Positions 12,578 to 20,089 of a DNA stretch of 39,279 nucleotides are shown here, in pieces (position 1 is the stretch's first letter; each line of letters opens with the position of its first letter). The notes under the pieces were generated by a model. It was not told the origin of the DNA. It saw only the letters and a program-made list of their open reading frames with translations, and made no database searches. The position numbers and the translations under genes were made by a program. Source of the stretch: Corynebacterium sp. HMSC078H07 (GTDB lineage Bacteria; Actinomycetota; Actinomycetes; Mycobacteriales; Mycobacteriaceae); contig NZ_KV810470.1 of the NCBI RefSeq assembly GCF_001812805.1, forward strand, positions 1 through 39,279, given 5' to 3'.

Positions 12578-14302
12578 ATGTCGAAGTTCTCTGAGGTCCT
12601 AGAACAGCTGCGTGAAAACCAACCAAAGGCTAAATATGGCATTGCCTTTGAGAAGCTGATGGTCAACTATTTCAAGACCGACCCGACCTTGAAGAACCAA
12701 TTCGATGAGGTCTGCCGCTGGACGGATTGGCGCTACAACGGCGGCAAGGCGGATACCGGCATTGACCTGGTAGCTCGCCGCGTGGATGACGGCACGTGGA
12801 CTGCCATCCAGTGCAAGTTCTATGACTCCAAGGCGCGCATCCAAAAGTCGCACCTAGATTCCTTCTTCGAGGCTTCCGGGCATTCTTTTGACACTGAAGA
12901 AGGCCGCCAGTACTTTGGCAGCCGCCTGATTATCTCCACCACGGATCACTGGTCCTCCCACGCGGAGGATGCCCTAGCCAACCAGATTATTCCGACCAGC
13001 CGTATTGGCATCTCCGCGATTGCGGAGTCACCCATCAACTGGGATGTGGCCTTCCCTGGCTCGGAGGTGCGCGATAAGACCATCCAGATCAACCTCTCCC
13101 AACGTGAAACTTTTGAGCCCCGCCCGCACCAGCAGGCCGCAATCGACAAAGCCATCGAAGGGTTCACAACCCATGACCGCGGCAAGCTCATCATGGCGTG
13201 TGGTACCGGCAAAACCTTTACCGCCCTGCGCCTCGCGGAGCGCGTCGCTGAGGACAACGGCGGCAAGGCCCGCATCCTCTTCCTCGTGCCGTCTATTTCC
13301 TTGCTCTCGCAAACCCTGAAGGAGTGGACCGCCCAGGGCCGCCTCGATATGCGCGCCTTCGCGGTGTGCTCCGACAGCAAGGTCTCCAAGAAGGCCGAGG
13401 ACATTGCCGTCTATGACCTTGAAGTTCCCGTTTCTACCGAGGGCAAGGACATCACCACACGCTTTGAATCCGGCAAGCGTGCCAAGGGCCTCAACATCGT
13501 CTTCTCCACCTACCAGTCCATCCAGGCGGTGCATGACGCCCAACAGGTGGGCCTCGATGATTTCGATCTCGTCATTTGCGATGAAGCCCACCGCACCACC
13601 GGCATCACCTTGGCCGGTGAGGACGCCAGCAACTTTGTCCGCGTCCACGATGCCGACTACATCAAGGCCGCCAAGCGCCTTTACATGACGGCCACCCCGC
13701 GCCTTTATGACGAAGCCGTCAAGGGCAAAGCCGAGGAACACTCCGCGGAGCTGGCCTCCATGGATGATGAAGCCATCTACGGCCCGGAGTTCTACCGCCT
13801 CGGCTTCGGTGAGGCCGTGGACAAGGGCCTACTCACGGACTACAAAGTGCTCGTTATGACCGTGGACGAATCCGTCGCCGCCCAAGCCATGGCACAGAGT
13901 GAGAACAACCAGGTCAACCTCTCCCTAGCTTCTGCCATGATTGGCGCCTGGAACGGCCTGGCCAAGCGCTCCGGCGAATTGCAGGGTAAGAAGGGCGGCT
14001 TCGACGAGGACGCCCAGCCCATGCAGCGCGCGGTGGCCTTTGCCAAGGACATCAAGACCTCCCAACTCATTGCGGAGACTTACCCCTCGCTCATCGGCAC
14101 CCACCAGGAACTGCTCAAAGAAAAAGCGGTGCTTAACGACGTCTCCCTGACCAACGTCGACCTTAACGTCGCCGCCCAGCATGTCGACGGCGGCATGAAC
14201 GCCATGGAGCGCGGCACAAGGCTGTCCTGGCTCGAAGCTCCTTCAGGGGGGGGCAGCAGTCGCGCATGCTCACCAACGCGCGCTGCCTTTCTGAGGGCGT
14301 AG
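12578..14302 (+). CDS. Type ISP-like restriction-modification enzyme, N-terminal nuclease-helicase part (frameshifted)
   Basis: This is the first 574-codon frame of a single-chain restriction-modification enzyme. Residues 1-150 are an Mrr-like nuclease with GID63LVA and AIQ78CK80, the D...QxK active site. A superfamily 2 helicase/translocase follows: PRPHQQAAI (Q motif), MACGTGKTF (Walker A, Lys about 212), LVICDEAHR (DEAH box, 335-338) and LYMTATPRLY (motif III). The true product stops matching at EAPS. A run of eight G at 14246-14253 then throws the frame into a spurious tail ending at 14302. Helicase motif VI and the methyltransferase continue in another frame from about 14254. With nine (or six) G the two parts would join into about 1,660 residues, close to the length of LlaGI/LlaBIII-type enzymes. 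Confidence 0.88.
   Translation: MSKFSEVLEQLRENQPKAKYGIAFEKLMVNYFKTDPTLKNQFDEVCRWTDWRYNGGKADTGIDLVARRVDDGTWTAIQCKFYDSKARIQKSHLDSFFEASGHSFDTEEGRQYFGSRLIISTTDHWSSHAEDALANQIIPTSRIGISAIAESPINWDVAFPGSEVRDKTIQINLSQRETFEPRPHQQAAIDKAIEGFTTHDRGKLIMACGTGKTFTALRLAERVAEDNGGKARILFLVPSISLLSQTLKEWTAQGRLDMRAFAVCSDSKVSKKAEDIAVYDLEVPVSTEGKDITTRFESGKRAKGLNIVFSTYQSIQAVHDAQQVGLDDFDLVICDEAHRTTGITLAGEDASNFVRVHDADYIKAAKRLYMTATPRLYDEAVKGKAEEHSAELASMDDEAIYGPEFYRLGFGEAVDKGLLTDYKVLVMTVDESVAAQAMAQSENNQVNLSLASAMIGAWNGLAKRSGELQGKKGGFDEDAQPMQRAVAFAKDIKTSQLIAETYPSLIGTHQELLKEKAVLNDVSLTNVDLNVAAQHVDGGMNAMERGTRLSWLEAPSGGGSSRACSPTRAAFLRA
14246..14253 (+). repeat. G8 homopolymer at the frameshift in the restriction enzyme gene
   Basis: Eight consecutive G follow TCA and precede CAGCAG. 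The upstream frame (codons ending at TCA) and the downstream frame (CAG at 14254) join only if the number of G is a multiple of three, so nine or six would restore the protein. Homopolymer tracts like this are known slipped-strand switches in restriction-modification genes, and they are also common sequencing-error sites. Confidence 0.85.
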
Positions 14303-17300
14303 ACGTCCCAGCCCTGGATGCCGTCATCTTCTTCAACCCCCGCAACTCCATGGTAGACGTGGTCCAGTCCGTCGGCCGCGTCATGCGCAAGTCTGAGGGC
14401 AAGGATTACGGCTACATCATCTTGCCCGTCGCCGTAGCCAGCAACGTCTCCCCAGCAGAAGCACTCAACGACAACCAGCGCTTCAAGGTTGTCTGGCAGA
14501 TCCTCAACGCGCTGCGTGCCCACGATGACCGCTTCAACGCGAAGATTAACTCCATCGCCCTTAACGGCGAGCCCGATGATCTCCCGATCATCCCAATCCC
14601 GGTCAATCCGATTCCCGATGATCCGAACGCCAGCAAAGATGCAGAAGAAGATCCGCGGGAGAAGCTCAATGCGAGCGATGTTGAGCGCTCTTCGGATAGC
14701 TCTTCCGCGTGGGAGGACCCATCTGCCGTTATTCGACAGATCGCGCTGTTCTCTCTGGAGGAGTGGCAAGAAGCCATCTACACCAAGCTGGTGGATAAGG
14801 TCGGCAGCCGTACCTACTGGGAAGACTGGGCAGATGACGTTGCCACGATTGCGGAGAACCAAATCACCCGCATTAAGGCGCTTCTCGATGACGCCGATGT
14901 AGACCTACGCACAGAATTCGACAGTTTCGTTGAAGGCCTACGCAACAACCTCAACGATGGCATCAGCGAAGAAGACGCTATCTCGATGCTCTCGCAGCAC
15001 CTCATTACGGCACCGGTCTTCAACGCGCTCTTTGAGAACCATGACTTCATCACCCACAACCCCGTGGCCCAGGTCATGGAGAAGATGGTCAAGGCTTTGT
15101 CCAAGGCAAACCTCGATACCGAAACCGAGTCCCTGGAGAAGTTCTACGAGTCCGTTCGCGTCCGTGCCTCTGAGGTGAACTCCGCTTCCGGCAAGCAGCA
15201 AGTTATTAAGGAGCTCTACGAGCGCTTCTTCCGCAAGGCCTTCAAGAAGCAATCGGAAGCCCTTGGCATCGTCTACACCCCAGTCGAAATCGTTGACTTC
15301 ATCCTGCGCGCTGCCGACGACGTATCCAAGAAGCACTTCGGTAGGGGACTTACCGACGAGGGCGTGTGCATCCTCGATCCCTTCGCCGGCACCTCCACCT
15401 TCACGGTTCGTCTCCTACAGTCCGGACTTATCAAGCCGGAAGACCTCGCCCGTAAGTACGCCACCGAACTCTTCGCCACCGAGATCATGCTGCTGGCCTA
15501 CTACGTCTCTGCCGTCAATATCGAGACCACATACAACGCCCTGCGAGAAGAAGCAGCCCTCCGAAACGGCGAACCAGCACCCGAGTACGTGCCCTTCACC
15601 AACATCGCCCTAGCCGATACTTTCCAAATCCACGAGGAAGGCGACATCCCAGACCTCAACATCTTCCGCGAGAACAACGAGACCATCGAACGCCAGAAGA
15701 ATGCACCCATCAACGTGGTGATTGGCAACCCGCCGTACTCAGCCGGCCAAAAGTCCGCCAACGACCTCAACGCGAACCTGAAATACCCGAGCCTGGACAA
15801 GCGCATTGCGGAGACCTACGCCGCAAAGTCCACAGCCACCAACAAGAACTCGCTTTACGACTCGTACCTAAGAGCTTTCCGCTGGGCCACTGACCGCATC
15901 GGCGATCAAGGTGTGGTCGCGTTCGTCTCAAACGGCGGCTGGATCGACGGAAACACCGGCGACGGCGTGCGTCTGTCGATGGCCGAGGATTTCACCGATC
16001 TCTATGTGTTTAACCTTCGCGGCAATATGCGTAACTCCAACTGGCGAGAGGAAGGAGGTCAGATTTTCGGTGCAGGATCGCAGACCACTATTGCCGTGTT
16101 TATCGGAGTAAAAGACCCGAACAAGACGAATTTCAGCTTGCACTATATACAGACCCCTGATGGTGCAACTCGTGATGAGAAGCTTGAGATAGTTGAAAAA
16201 TCAACAGTTAAGGACATGGAATGGCAGCAGCTCACGCCGAATAGGGAAGGCGACTGGCTGAATCAGCGTTCGGAAGAATTTAAAACTTGGCCTGTTATCG
16301 GCGAAAAGAAGGGAACAAATAGGAAAATTTTCAATGTGTTTTCTGCGGGGCTTCAAACTAACCGTGATTCCTGGGTCTATTCTTCTTCAACTGCAGCTCT
16401 TGAGAACCAAGTTGCTACGTTGCGGGATACATACTCTCAGGCGCTCGAAGCAATCAAGCCAGATCAAAAGGCGAAGGACTTCCTCAAACAAGAGCCGTGG
16501 TTTATAGATTCTACGCGTAGTAAATGGTCCTCCAGTTTAGAGAATCAGTTAGATAGACGGTTAGAGCTGGGGCAGACCGGTTTTACCGTTTCAAGTCTCT
16601 ATCGACCTTTTCACCGCCAGATTGTCTATTTTGACAGCCAATTGAATCATCGACGCTATCAACTCCCCTCAATGTTCCCAACCCCGGAACACCGCAATAT
16701 CGGGTTTTATCAGGTCGGGAATGGTTCTGCTGTTCCTTTTTCTGTCGTGGCCACAAATTTGCTGCCTGACCTACACGTCACTGGCGCAGGATCGGGTGGC
16801 CAGTACTTCCCCCGCTTCACCTGGGCCGCCGTCTCAGCCGACGATGGTGGGCTGTTTGGTGAGGGGAGCGTCGCCAAGCAAGGCGAGGCCAGCATCTACG
16901 GTTCGATTAGTGAGGTTGTCGACGGCTACGTGCGAGTGGACAACATCACTGATGAGTTTAAGGCTTTCTACCGCGATGCGCTGGGTGCTGACATCACGGG
17001 TGATGACATCTTCCACTTTGTCTACGGCAAGCTGCATGACCCTGGCTACCGCACTAAGTATGCGGCTGACTTGAAGAAGATGCTGCCGCACATTGAGACG
17101 CCGTCGTCGCGTGCGGAGTTCGACAAGTTTGCTGCTGCGGGTCAGGAGTTGATGGATCTTCACGTTAACTACGAGTCCGTGGAGCCGTGGCCGATAGATA
17201 TTCAGGTCAAAGGCGATGAATCCGACTGTGAGACGTGGCGCGTGCTCAAGATGAAGTGGGCCAAGCGCAGAGACCCGGAGACCGGTAAGAACGTCAATGA

Positions 17301-17565
17301 CGTGACCAGGCTGATCTACAACAAGCGCGTGACCATTTCTGGTATTCCGGCCGAGGCGGATGAGTACATGTTGGGCTCGCGCTCAGCTGTCGCGTGGCTG
17401 ATTGACCGCTACCAGGTCAAGAAGGACAAGGCCTCGGGCATCGTCAACGACCCCAATGATTGGGCCGACGAGGTAGGCAATCCGCGCTACATCGTGGACC
17501 TTATTGGGAAAGTGGTGCGCGTGGCCATGGAGACAGTGCGGATAGTGGATGAGTTGGCCAGTTGA
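14266..17565 (+). CDS. Type ISP-like restriction-modification enzyme, helicase end, methyltransferase and target-recognition part
   Basis: This is the 1,099-codon second frame of the same gene. It starts with the end of the helicase (ARCLSEGVDVPALDAVIF and motif VI QSVGRVMRK). A helical coupler follows, then an N6-adenine methyltransferase with ILDPFAGTSTF (motif I, residues 369-379) and VIGNPPYSAG (motif IV, 486-493). The remaining part, after about residue 600, is expected to be the target recognition domain. Such enzymes methylate one strand of an asymmetric site and cut after head-to-head translocation; that is family knowledge. The ATG at 14266 is only the first Met after the frameshift, not a natural start. 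The segment about 16120-16790 is clearly more AT-rich than the flanking parts, as expected of an exchanged recognition domain. The ending VRIVDELAS is in the normal base composition again. Confidence 0.88.
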   Translation: MLTNARCLSEGVDVPALDAVIFFNPRNSMVDVVQSVGRVMRKSEGKDYGYIILPVAVASNVSPAEALNDNQRFKVVWQILNALRAHDDRFNAKINSIALNGEPDDLPIIPIPVNPIPDDPNASKDAEEDPREKLNASDVERSSDSSSAWEDPSAVIRQIALFSLEEWQEAIYTKLVDKVGSRTYWEDWADDVATIAENQITRIKALLDDADVDLRTEFDSFVEGLRNNLNDGISEEDAISMLSQHLITAPVFNALFENHDFITHNPVAQVMEKMVKALSKANLDTETESLEKFYESVRVRASEVNSASGKQQVIKELYERFFRKAFKKQSEALGIVYTPVEIVDFILRAADDVSKKHFGRGLTDEGVCILDPFAGTSTFTVRLLQSGLIKPEDLARKYATELFATEIMLLAYYVSAVNIETTYNALREEAALRNGEPAPEYVPFTNIALADTFQIHEEGDIPDLNIFRENNETIERQKNAPINVVIGNPPYSAGQKSANDLNANLKYPSLDKRIAETYAAKSTATNKNSLYDSYLRAFRWATDRIGDQGVVAFVSNGGWIDGNTGDGVRLSMAEDFTDLYVFNLRGNMRNSNWREEGGQIFGAGSQTTIAVFIGVKDPNKTNFSLHYIQTPDGATRDEKLEIVEKSTVKDMEWQQLTPNREGDWLNQRSEEFKTWPVIGEKKGTNRKIFNVFSAGLQTNRDSWVYSSSTAALENQVATLRDTYSQALEAIKPDQKAKDFLKQEPWFIDSTRSKWSSSLENQLDRRLELGQTGFTVSSLYRPFHRQIVYFDSQLNHRRYQLPSMFPTPEHRNIGFYQVGNGSAVPFSVVATNLLPDLHVTGAGSGGQYFPRFTWAAVSADDGGLFGEGSVAKQGEASIYGSISEVVDGYVRVDNITDEFKAFYRDALGADITGDDIFHFVYGKLHDPGYRTKYAADLKKMLPHIETPSSRAEFDKFAAAGQELMDLHVNYESVEPWPIDIQVKGDESDCETWRVLKMKWAKRRDPETGKNVNDVTRLIYNKRVTISGIPAEADEYMLGSRSAVAWLIDRYQVKKDKASGIVNDPNDWADEVGNPRYIVDLIGKVVRVAMETVRIVDELAS

Positions 17566-17656: not shown

Positions 17657-20089
17657 ATGAAGGGCAACGTTGTAGATATTTACAAGGCTTTTGACGGTAC
17701 GGATAAGAAGCTTGTTATTCCCGTTTATCAGCGGAATTATGACTGGACCTCAAAACAGTGTGAACGCCTCTTCGACGATATCGAGGACATGATCGACACT
17801 GGTCGTCCGAAGCACTTTTTTGGCGCCGTGGTAGGGAACCCCGAGGATTCCTTCACCTGGGTGGTCATTGACGGCCAGCAGCGTATGACTACGGTTAGTC
17901 TGCTGATGCTGGCGCTTGTCCATGCTATTGAAGCCGGTGAGATTGAGGCGGGTGACGAAGCCTTGGCTGGGCAGCTCATGCGCAACTACCTTGAATTCAG
18001 CGATGGTGGGGACCAAAAATTCAAGTTAAAGCCCGTGAAGGACGATAGGAATTCTTACGCTAAGCTCTTCGGCCCTGAGGACCAGTTCAACGAGAAGTCC
18101 AAAATTACAGCGAATTATCGCTATTTCCGTGAACGGTTGCGCAATGTCCATTTCGATGCCAAGACTTTTTGGGACGAGGGGATATCCAACCTTGAAGTGA
18201 TGCTGCTGGATTTGGAAAAGCAGGATAATCCCCAAAGAATTTTTGAATCCCTAAATTCTACAGGCTTGGCCCTTAAGGAATCGGACAAGATCCGAAACTT
18301 CATCTTGATGGATATGCCTCAAAAGGAGCAGGGGGAGGTGTATGAGAAGTACTGGAACGAGATGGAGAAAAACGTCTCCTTTAACACTGACGACTTCATC
18401 CGATGGTTCCTAGTGGCTCAAACAGCCAAGACTCCTAACAAGGCTGAACTGTTTGAATCATTCAAACTCTTCACAAAGAACAGTGGTAGGAGTACTCACC
18501 ACATCGCACAGGATCTTCATCAATTTTCTCTTTATGCCAGGGAAATTACGGAGGCGAACACTGGGGACAAGAAAATTGATAAACGTCTTCGTCGAGCAAA
18601 CATGGTTCTCGGTGGAGTGGTCAAGCCATTGCTGTGGCTAACCTACCGTGATTTCAAGAACGGCGTCATCGATGGCGCTGACTTTGAGAACATGCTTGGG
18701 GTTATTGAAAGTTATATGTTTAGGCGATTAGTAGCGAATATCGGTACAAATGCACTAAACAAGATTTTTAGTGGTGCCTACAGTGATATTCGGAAATTGC
18801 GTAAGAACAACGAGGCCTACAGTGAAATCCTTGCTTATGTGCTCATGAGCCGCCGCGGTGGTGGCCGATTCCCCGATAACAATGAGTTTAGGGAAGCTTT
18901 CCAGACTCGGGACTTCTATGCCATGAAAAACTACCGTGGCTATTTCTTCGATTTCCTCGAGCGTGGGTTCTCCAAGGACGTTGTCGATATTGCAGGGTAC
19001 ATCGGCGAAAATGAGCTGACCATTGAACACATCATGCCGCAGACCCTGAGCAAACAGTGGAAAGAGGACCTTGGGCCGAACTTCGAAGAGATTCACTCGG
19101 TATGGGTTAATCGCATTGCGAATCTGACGATCACTGGATATAACTCTGAATACTCGAACCGCCCGTTTGCTACTAAGAAAACTATGGAGGGTGGTTTTTC
19201 GGAGTCGCCTTACCTCCTGAACAGGTATGTCAAGGAACAGGAAGCATGGGGCCTGCAGCAGCTTGAAGAACGCAGCGAGTTACTAGCGAATCGAGCACTC
19301 GAGCTCTGGTCATATCCGACCAGTACCTTTGAGCCAGAGAAGGAAGTTATTCCTTTTGAGCCCATGGGCGTTGACCGCAGCTTTACTGGTCGTTATATCG
19401 TTGCGGTCGAGTTAGAGGGAACTAAGAGCTCGGTGACGACGTGGGGAAGCATGCTAGTCAAGACTCTACGTATGCTTCTGGAATATGACCGTGAGGCAGT
19501 CTTGGCTATGGCCGAAGAGACCCGTCAGCTCAGAACAACCAACGTCAAGCAACTTGTAGAGCAAGACAAACGCTGGAGCCAAGTTGATCCCGCACTTGCC
19601 GTTGCTAAGGATAATTCGACCTCCGCAAAGTTGACTTTGCTTCGAAAAGTCTGCGAATCGATCGGGTATGACCCAGACGATATTCTTATCTACCTGCGGC
19701 CTGACCAGGATGCTGTCAATGTTAAGGAAGCAGCGCAGGAAAGAGCAGAGGATGCGCCCTACGCGGAACTCGTTGCACTTAGGCCCCTCATTGATGAGCT
19801 TACTGACAGTGATTTAGGTGAAAGCGAGACTGCAGATGAACGCCGAGGACTCGTCGGCGCTGTCGAGATCTACAGAGTTGAGAACCCTAAACAAACCCTC
19901 GGAGGATTAACCCTTCAAGAATTCATGACCCGAAACGATGGTCACGACATCACCGCAGAACAAGCGATTTCCTGTCTGTCTCTGTACGCAGAGATGGCGG
20001 AGTTAATGGGGCCACAGGTCTGGCACGATGCGATCATTCGCGGAAATATCAGTACGCTTTTGGCCGCTATTGAAGGTTCCTCCTCGTAA
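17657..20089 (+). CDS. GmrSD-like restriction nuclease, DUF262 + DUF1524 fused
   Basis: This is an 810-residue protein. The N-terminal DUF262 (GmrS-like) domain has VYQRNYDW and VIDGQQRMTT (Asp 72 to Thr 79), the ParB/sulfiredoxin-like nucleotide-binding motif. The central DUF1524 domain is an HNH nuclease with LTIEHIMPQTL (His 458), then NRIANLTITGYNSEYSNRPF. Fused GmrSD proteins are modification-dependent (Type IV) restriction enzymes that act on modified phage DNA. About 230 residues after the HNH domain (from roughly 570) include TSAKLTLLRKVCESIGYDPDD, which I cannot assign to a known domain. The start ATG has GAGGGAG upstream. It lies 91 bp after the Type ISP gene, forming a two-gene defence block, and its base composition is more AT-rich than the backbone. 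Confidence 0.88.
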   Translation: MKGNVVDIYKAFDGTDKKLVIPVYQRNYDWTSKQCERLFDDIEDMIDTGRPKHFFGAVVGNPEDSFTWVVIDGQQRMTTVSLLMLALVHAIEAGEIEAGDEALAGQLMRNYLEFSDGGDQKFKLKPVKDDRNSYAKLFGPEDQFNEKSKITANYRYFRERLRNVHFDAKTFWDEGISNLEVMLLDLEKQDNPQRIFESLNSTGLALKESDKIRNFILMDMPQKEQGEVYEKYWNEMEKNVSFNTDDFIRWFLVAQTAKTPNKAELFESFKLFTKNSGRSTHHIAQDLHQFSLYAREITEANTGDKKIDKRLRRANMVLGGVVKPLLWLTYRDFKNGVIDGADFENMLGVIESYMFRRLVANIGTNALNKIFSGAYSDIRKLRKNNEAYSEILAYVLMSRRGGGRFPDNNEFREAFQTRDFYAMKNYRGYFFDFLERGFSKDVVDIAGYIGENELTIEHIMPQTLSKQWKEDLGPNFEEIHSVWVNRIANLTITGYNSEYSNRPFATKKTMEGGFSESPYLLNRYVKEQEAWGLQQLEERSELLANRALELWSYPTSTFEPEKEVIPFEPMGVDRSFTGRYIVAVELEGTKSSVTTWGSMLVKTLRMLLEYDREAVLAMAEETRQLRTTNVKQLVEQDKRWSQVDPALAVAKDNSTSAKLTLLRKVCESIGYDPDDILIYLRPDQDAVNVKEAAQERAEDAPYAELVALRPLIDELTDSDLGESETADERRGLVGAVEIYRVENPKQTLGGLTLQEFMTRNDGHDITAEQAISCLSLYAEMAELMGPQVWHDAIIRGNISTLLAAIEGSSS

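Follow-up and report, generated by a model that had tools for sequence, protein, structure and literature searches.

A probable slipped-strand switch in a Type ISP restriction-modification gene of Corynebacterium, with homopolymer tracts at seven sites in the gene family

ON/OFF switching is known among restriction and defense enzymes, including phase-variable Type I, Type III and Type IIG restriction-modification enzymes and the methylase PglX; the first-pass annotation of the locus described here pointed to such switching in other restriction-modification types. Type IIG enzymes such as Cj0031 are without an ATP-driven helicase. In Campylobacter jejuni, the Type IIG enzyme Cj0031 consists of a single chain whose gene contains a poly-G tract; switching is reported to alter methylation, and phages are restricted when the enzyme is on (PMC4889913). 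The pglX gene of Streptomyces coelicolor has an 8-G tract in which G8 to G7 changes occur, and its high-frequency switching is put at 1e-2 to 1e-4 (PMC4365076). Type ISP enzymes with solved structures include LlaGI and LlaBIII, whose domain order is that of the gene described here (PMC4666363). Frameshifts in Type ISP genes have been encountered in reference strains of Helicobacter pylori; those in HP0667-HP0669 are stated not to arise from sequence repeats, and the JHP0612-JHP0613 frameshift is called authentic (PMC3936762).

The window, i.e., the whole stretch of DNA that was analyzed, comprises 39,279 bases of Corynebacterium sp. HMSC078H07 (genome G000 of the survey described below) and contains a Type ISP gene that is split by a run of eight G's (Table 1). 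Like the gene of Cj0031, it specifies a single-chain restriction-methylation enzyme that is split by poly-G; unlike it, the gene does not belong to Type IIG; a single tract is described for Cj0031 (PMC4889913). The window gene resembles pglX in that both encode an actinobacterial defense methylase and have a G7/G8 tract, but PglX belongs to the multi-gene Pgl/BREX system and is not a Type ISP enzyme. The H. pylori genes share with it the combination of Type ISP and a frameshift. The best solved relatives of the downstream half are LlaGI (PDB 5ffj; E 4e-235) and LlaBIII (PDB 4xqk; E 5.8e-216), each of which is one uninterrupted polypeptide in its PDB entry, whereas the window allele is split by the homopolymer tract. 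The G8 run is likely a slipped-strand phase-variation tract that would turn the cutting and methylation of the single-chain enzyme on and off together.

Table 1. Features of the split gene in the window, and sites of homopolymer tracts in Type ISP genes of the genus (site positions in P0004 numbering; domains of sites by the Pfam limits of P0004)
Feature	Position	Strand	Details
Half A open frame, Mrr-family nuclease and helicase N-terminal part	12578..14302	+	574 aa; ATG 12578, through the tract, to TAG 14300-14302
Mrr_cat_2 nuclease domain (PF13156)	12674..13066	+	residues 33-163 of half A
ResIII / SF2 helicase N-terminal domain (PF04851)	13112..13702	+	residues 179-375 of half A
G8 homopolymer tract at frame break, proposed slipped-strand switch	14246..14253	+	exact limits of the run
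Half B open frame	14254..17565	+	1103 codons to TGA 17563-17565; first ATG 14266 gives 1099 aa
Rest of Helicase_C (PF00271)	14260..14391	+	residues 3-46 of half B
Type ISP coupler domain (PF22240)	14815..15189	+	residues 188-312 of half B
N6-adenine methyltransferase domain (PF02384; Eco57I profile overlaps)	15199..15786	+	residues 316-511 of half B
NPPY codons	15727..15738	+	sequence
Type ISP C-terminal specificity domain (PF18135)	16324..17502	+	residues 691-1083 of half B
Site 1, helicase	~224		G133 G9, G134 G8, G207 G10
Site 2, helicase	320		G004 G10
Site 3, helicase	557		G000 G8, G015 G7, G075 G10
Site 4, linker before coupler	~700		G231 C11, G226 C11
Site 5, methylase	~983		G097 C9, G135 C14, G136 C11, G154 C11 twice around N gap, G160 C9, G146 C10, G161 C10
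Site 6, methylase	~1100		G074 G11
Site 7, specificity domain	1546		G111 G11

The first-pass annotation had proposed that the tract splits a Type ISP-like gene, and the position of the tract, the frames and the complementary domains were all borne out. It was also right in describing two open frames (here half A and half B) that are in different phases at the tract, but the half A frame does not end at 14245 and runs 18 codons beyond it. The first ATG of half B lies 34 nt upstream of the half A stop codon. Half A matches Mrr_cat_2 (E 7.7e-44) and ResIII (E 1.5e-30), i.e., a nuclease followed by an SF2 helicase-like ATPase as in Type ISP enzymes, while half B matches ISP_coupler (E 2.4e-52), N6_Mtase (E 1e-4) and Type_ISP_C (E 2.8e-90). 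The PADLOC profile PDLC03597 is covered by half A at positions 2-552 and by half B at positions 552-1636. The two halves carry complementary domains of one gene, which by its domains is a Type ISP restriction-modification enzyme, predicted to translocate on DNA with ATP, to cleave it and to methylate N6-adenine. Its domain order is the same as that of LlaGI and LlaBIII, and the NPPY codons are those of methyltransferase motif IV.

Apart from the tract, the window contains no stretch of six or more consecutive G's or C's, although a first-order Markov expectation gives 24.7 runs of at least six and 1.8 runs of at least eight. Because one run was seen and 24.7 were expected, long G/C runs are avoided in the window, and the single exception falls exactly on the frame break, which is more than chance. 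A run of eight is short for a contingency tract, and this counts against reading it as a switch. In the 2.77-Mb genome that holds the window, 12 overlapping G8 windows make up eight runs of at least eight. The Type ISP gene is directly followed by a GmrSD-like restriction gene (window 17657-20089) that is missing at the matching place in two other genomes, G015 and G075, and is probably a recent arrival there or has been lost from the others.

Relatives of the gene were sought with protein searches, from which the best 120 of 7986 matches to half B and the best 120 of 1794 matches to half A were considered; the matches are 90%-identity clusters whose members may differ, and copies known from proteins alone come without DNA. 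One of them, P0001, has 1662 aa in one frame; it agrees with half A at 552 of 556 residues and with half B at 1102 of 1103. A single polypeptide with all domains, which the G8 allele of the window does not specify, is thus found in a near-identical protein. A G-tract-type junction is read through in 11 of the 240 listed proteins (as Gly-Gly-Gly in six, Gly-Gly in four and Gly-Val in one), ten of which have 1660-1674 aa; P0008 has 1543 aa and no Mrr match. The frame arithmetic by which nine or six G's would restore a protein of normal length fits these intact relatives. Eight of the 240 begin at the internal Met of half B, among them P0002, which is identical to half B of the window, and two half-A proteins of 574 aa, which represent 4 and 79 member sequences, finish with the out-of-frame tail that an eight-base tract produces.

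At the DNA level, the pattern around the tract was matched in 2 of 242 genomes of the genus, the window's own (G8) and G015, another Corynebacterium species, where seven G's at this place leave the halves out of frame. In G075 (C. minutissimum 1941), half B starts after G10 at the start of one contig and half A ends in G8 at the end of another, and both tract ends are joined to ends of an insertion sequence (L158:3168-3393, L046:1-247). The site-3 copies in DNA (G000, G015 and G075) are all off or broken, and in-frame copies at this site are known from proteins alone, a point against the switch. Tract-free near relatives have other sequence at the site, which in G151 and G115 reads ggggagcac. 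The specificity region (window 16380-16656 compared with L045 and L046) is the part least alike among G000, G015 and G075, so the species that share the tract probably recognize different sites. A plasmid home for the near copies was considered and dropped, since among 72,556 plasmid records searched, 87 had matches at 60-80% identity and none of these covered 80% of the query.

The insertion sequence found at the site-3 tract of G075 is also present in G087, where it lies within a six-C run at site 5 (L053:3950-4078 and a contig-end part of L052). Its end occurs in 24 of the 242 genomes and adjoins two or more C's in 30 of the 32 flanks listed. The element seems to favor C runs, judging from these flanks.

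Matches to half B are present in 128 of the 242 genomes of the genus. The survey of Type ISP genes comprised 99 loci, corresponding to 94 gene copies from 87 genomes; some copies are partial, and short fragments and weak matches elsewhere were left out. G or C runs of at least seven bases were found in 18 of the 94 copies, at seven sites, the first of which is in the helicase and the last in the specificity domain (Table 1). G087, with runs of only six C's beside its insertion, was left out of the tract counts. The reading frame changes at the tract in 11 of the 18 copies and does not change in five, and the remaining two are those with an assembly gap (G154) and with the insertion sequence (G075). 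The proportion of readable tracts that are out of frame (11 of 16) agrees with the two-thirds expected from free slippage over three equally likely frames (P 1.0). In G154, the N gap lies between two C11 runs at site 5 (L050:3445-3488), which suggests that the tract defeated the assembler. Frame changes without a run of at least seven, which speak against the switch, occur in G082, G129, G185 and G014. Tract-free copies are split, interrupted or incomplete in G087, G033, G014, G143, G158, G232 and G127, and those of G115 and G194 hold a stop. Outside the genus, a small sample of 12 loci of the same order, searched with their flanks and in part incomplete, contained one G7 inside the uninterrupted gene of G381 and nothing longer.

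The length of the repeat differs between near relatives and follows the reading frame at sites 1 and 5, and at site 3 the in-frame state is known from protein only. At site 1, a G9 tract is out of frame (G133) and a G8 tract in frame (G134) within nearly the same flanks. At site 5, C10 is in frame (G146 and G161) and both C9 (G160) and C11 (G136) are out; the G146 copy has a stop elsewhere in the region, and only its frame across the tract was used. The C14 tract of G135 is out of frame as well, but its flank also differs, so that length alone is no explanation there. A third protein search, for site 5, was limited to the best 120 of 7988 matches, all of at least 1569 aa, a limit below which any truncated forms would be missed. 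Of the 35 entries P0241-P0275, 9 have the in-frame tract type at site 5, with three or four prolines, and the rest have mostly tract-free sequence that lacks them.

Two control genes were examined for similar runs. Thirty ligA loci (46 genomes searched, 60.5 kb) had no run of at least seven, and 30 GmrSD loci (70 genomes with a match, 70.1 kb) had one C7; some control loci are cut by contig ends, and gene limits are approximate. Treating related genes as independent, runs of at least seven are present in 18 of 94 Type ISP copies versus 1 of 60 control loci (Fisher P 0.0008), and runs of at least eight in 17 of 94 versus 0 of 60 (Fisher P 0.00014). The 87 genomes hold 1154 G9 windows in 223.7 Mb, which predicts 2.35 in the 94 genes; 40 were seen, in 15 genes, with relatedness ignored. 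Counting the 7 sites, against an expectation of 2.35 windows, gives a Poisson P of 0.010, and counting nine events gives 0.0007. A phylogenetic tree built on a single segment of 93 copies requires at least two changes each at sites 1 and 5 on well-supported branches, and these may be gains or losses. The tree groups the three site-3 copies against the other tract copies, and the tract-free copies of G115, G151 and G048 fall among them, so that recombination or loss has occurred. Because the tracts sit at seven different positions, seven origins can be taken as a safe minimum.

A mutable repeat within the reading frame is present in the window gene, and the switch proposed in the first-pass annotation gains from the variation of tract length among relatives, the coexistence of intact and split forms in near-identical proteins, the purifying selection on both halves (see below) and the recurrence of analogous tracts in the gene family. 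Replication slippage would add or remove one or more G's, and this change would be frequent and reversible. The in-frame gene would yield one chain that can methylate the cell's own DNA and cleave DNA whose sites are unmethylated; the out-of-frame gene would yield a nuclease-helicase fragment without specificity, and both activities would be lost. Since recognition, methylation, translocation and cutting reside on one chain in Type ISP enzymes, one slippage would remove cutting and methylation together. The benefit may be that the population is mixed, with phage restricted by some of its cells and DNA let in by others.

The genus appears to have gained tracts in this enzyme family several times, and for this reason switching was probably selected and is not one genome's accident. 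It is likely that tracts were gained repeatedly and independently at seven or more places between helicase and specificity domain, that they mark the first recognized phase-variable Type ISP family and a convergent defense switch, and that they also act as insertion-sequence landing sites. Open-licence literature, searched mostly by title and the start of the abstract, yielded no description of a Type ISP enzyme that is phase-variable, nor of phase-variable restriction in Corynebacterium; the word "first" is provisional, as subscription journals were mostly outside the search. Should the tracts switch, individual cells of these bacteria would differ in phage resistance and DNA uptake, and the enzyme would often be recorded wrongly as broken in reference genomes. 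The first-pass annotation called such toggling safe, which is not supported in that form: when an off cell turns on, the new enzyme would meet an unmethylated chromosome, and this makes the survival of such a cell a direct question. Additionally, repeated gain at different sites would supply natural replicates with which to study why enzymes of this class are switched.

An off state that retains methylation has to be weighed against the loss of both activities. Ribosomes restarting at ATG 14266 would make half B, whose long frame has an ATG of its own and keeps the coupler, methylase and specificity domains, and HP0669, the methylase-plus-specificity part of an H. pylori Type ISP enzyme, is reported to methylate on its own (PMC3936762). 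Sites 5 and 6, however, lie inside the methylase and site 7 inside the specificity domain, where a methylation-only state cannot explain the tracts, and what the tract sites share is that the single chain would be lost. This reading is unlikely for the tracts as switches, although such an off state is possible at site 3 by analogy; it would not be expected at sites 5 and 6 because both fall within the methylase.

The joint switching of cutting and methylation must also be set against an error of sequencing or assembly, which the first-pass annotation regarded as the main alternative and in which the eight-G count would be wrong and the gene intact. G runs are error-prone, the window assembly is a draft of 89 contigs, and a near-identical one-frame protein exists. 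On the other hand, G015, with a main contig of 2.72 Mb, is independently split with G7; the listed matches include two half-A proteins that represent 83 member sequences and, in addition to the one from the window, seven half-B proteins; and the eleven out-of-frame tracts of the survey would also have to be errors. The independent G7 and G8-type split copies much weaken this explanation, which is rejected as a general account and very improbable overall, and which could apply to the window assembly alone.

Selection on the two halves bears on whether the gene is decaying. Values of dN/dS were obtained between G000 and G015, codon by codon and for the halves separately. Half A gave 0.016 over 556 codons; half B gave 0.128 over its first 680 codons, 0.081 over its last 255 codons and 0.178 over all 1087 aligned codons, a 160-codon stretch in the specificity region being too diverged to score dS. 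Five tract-free pairs without stops in half B gave 0.068-0.17 for the first stretch and 0.042-0.114 for the last. The pair G151-G115 gave 0.115, with a value of 0.862 for the last 255 codons, but G115 has a stop at half B residue 999, and the pair was set aside as a yardstick for that reason. Thus, by comparison with the five pairs, selection is maintained downstream of the repeat. No stop was found inside half B in G000, G015 or G075, and neither relaxed selection nor extra stops follow the break, so the decay of the downstream half raised in the first-pass annotation was looked for and not seen. A decaying pseudogene, its frame broken once and its halves still uneroded, would agree with the absence of a full frame from both split copies (G000 and G015) and the disruption of G075 by an insertion sequence, but it is rejected as highly unlikely on dN/dS values within the intact-pair range on either side of the break (0.016 and 0.08-0.13), the uninterrupted half B of the three genomes, the near-identical one-frame protein and the different tract lengths between species. 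The dS of half A (0.245) is much lower than that of the first 680 codons of half B (0.804), and the two halves therefore probably differ in recombination history.

Type ISP genes of the genus are also interrupted by large elements of about 27, 54 and 51 kb (G033:C1:318655-345363, G014:C1:226124-280497 and G143:C1:1055090-1106312; loci L054, L055, L057, L058, L115 and L116). In the stretches compared, the ends of these three insertions have no direct repeats longer than 8 bases, and no tyrosine recombinase matches were found inside them. The insertion point lies in the NPPY codons in G143 and in the codons of methylase motif I in G033 and G014. Two matches to large serine recombinases (PF07508) occur as a pair in each element, and this suggests that conserved methylase motifs may serve as attachment sites for large elements.
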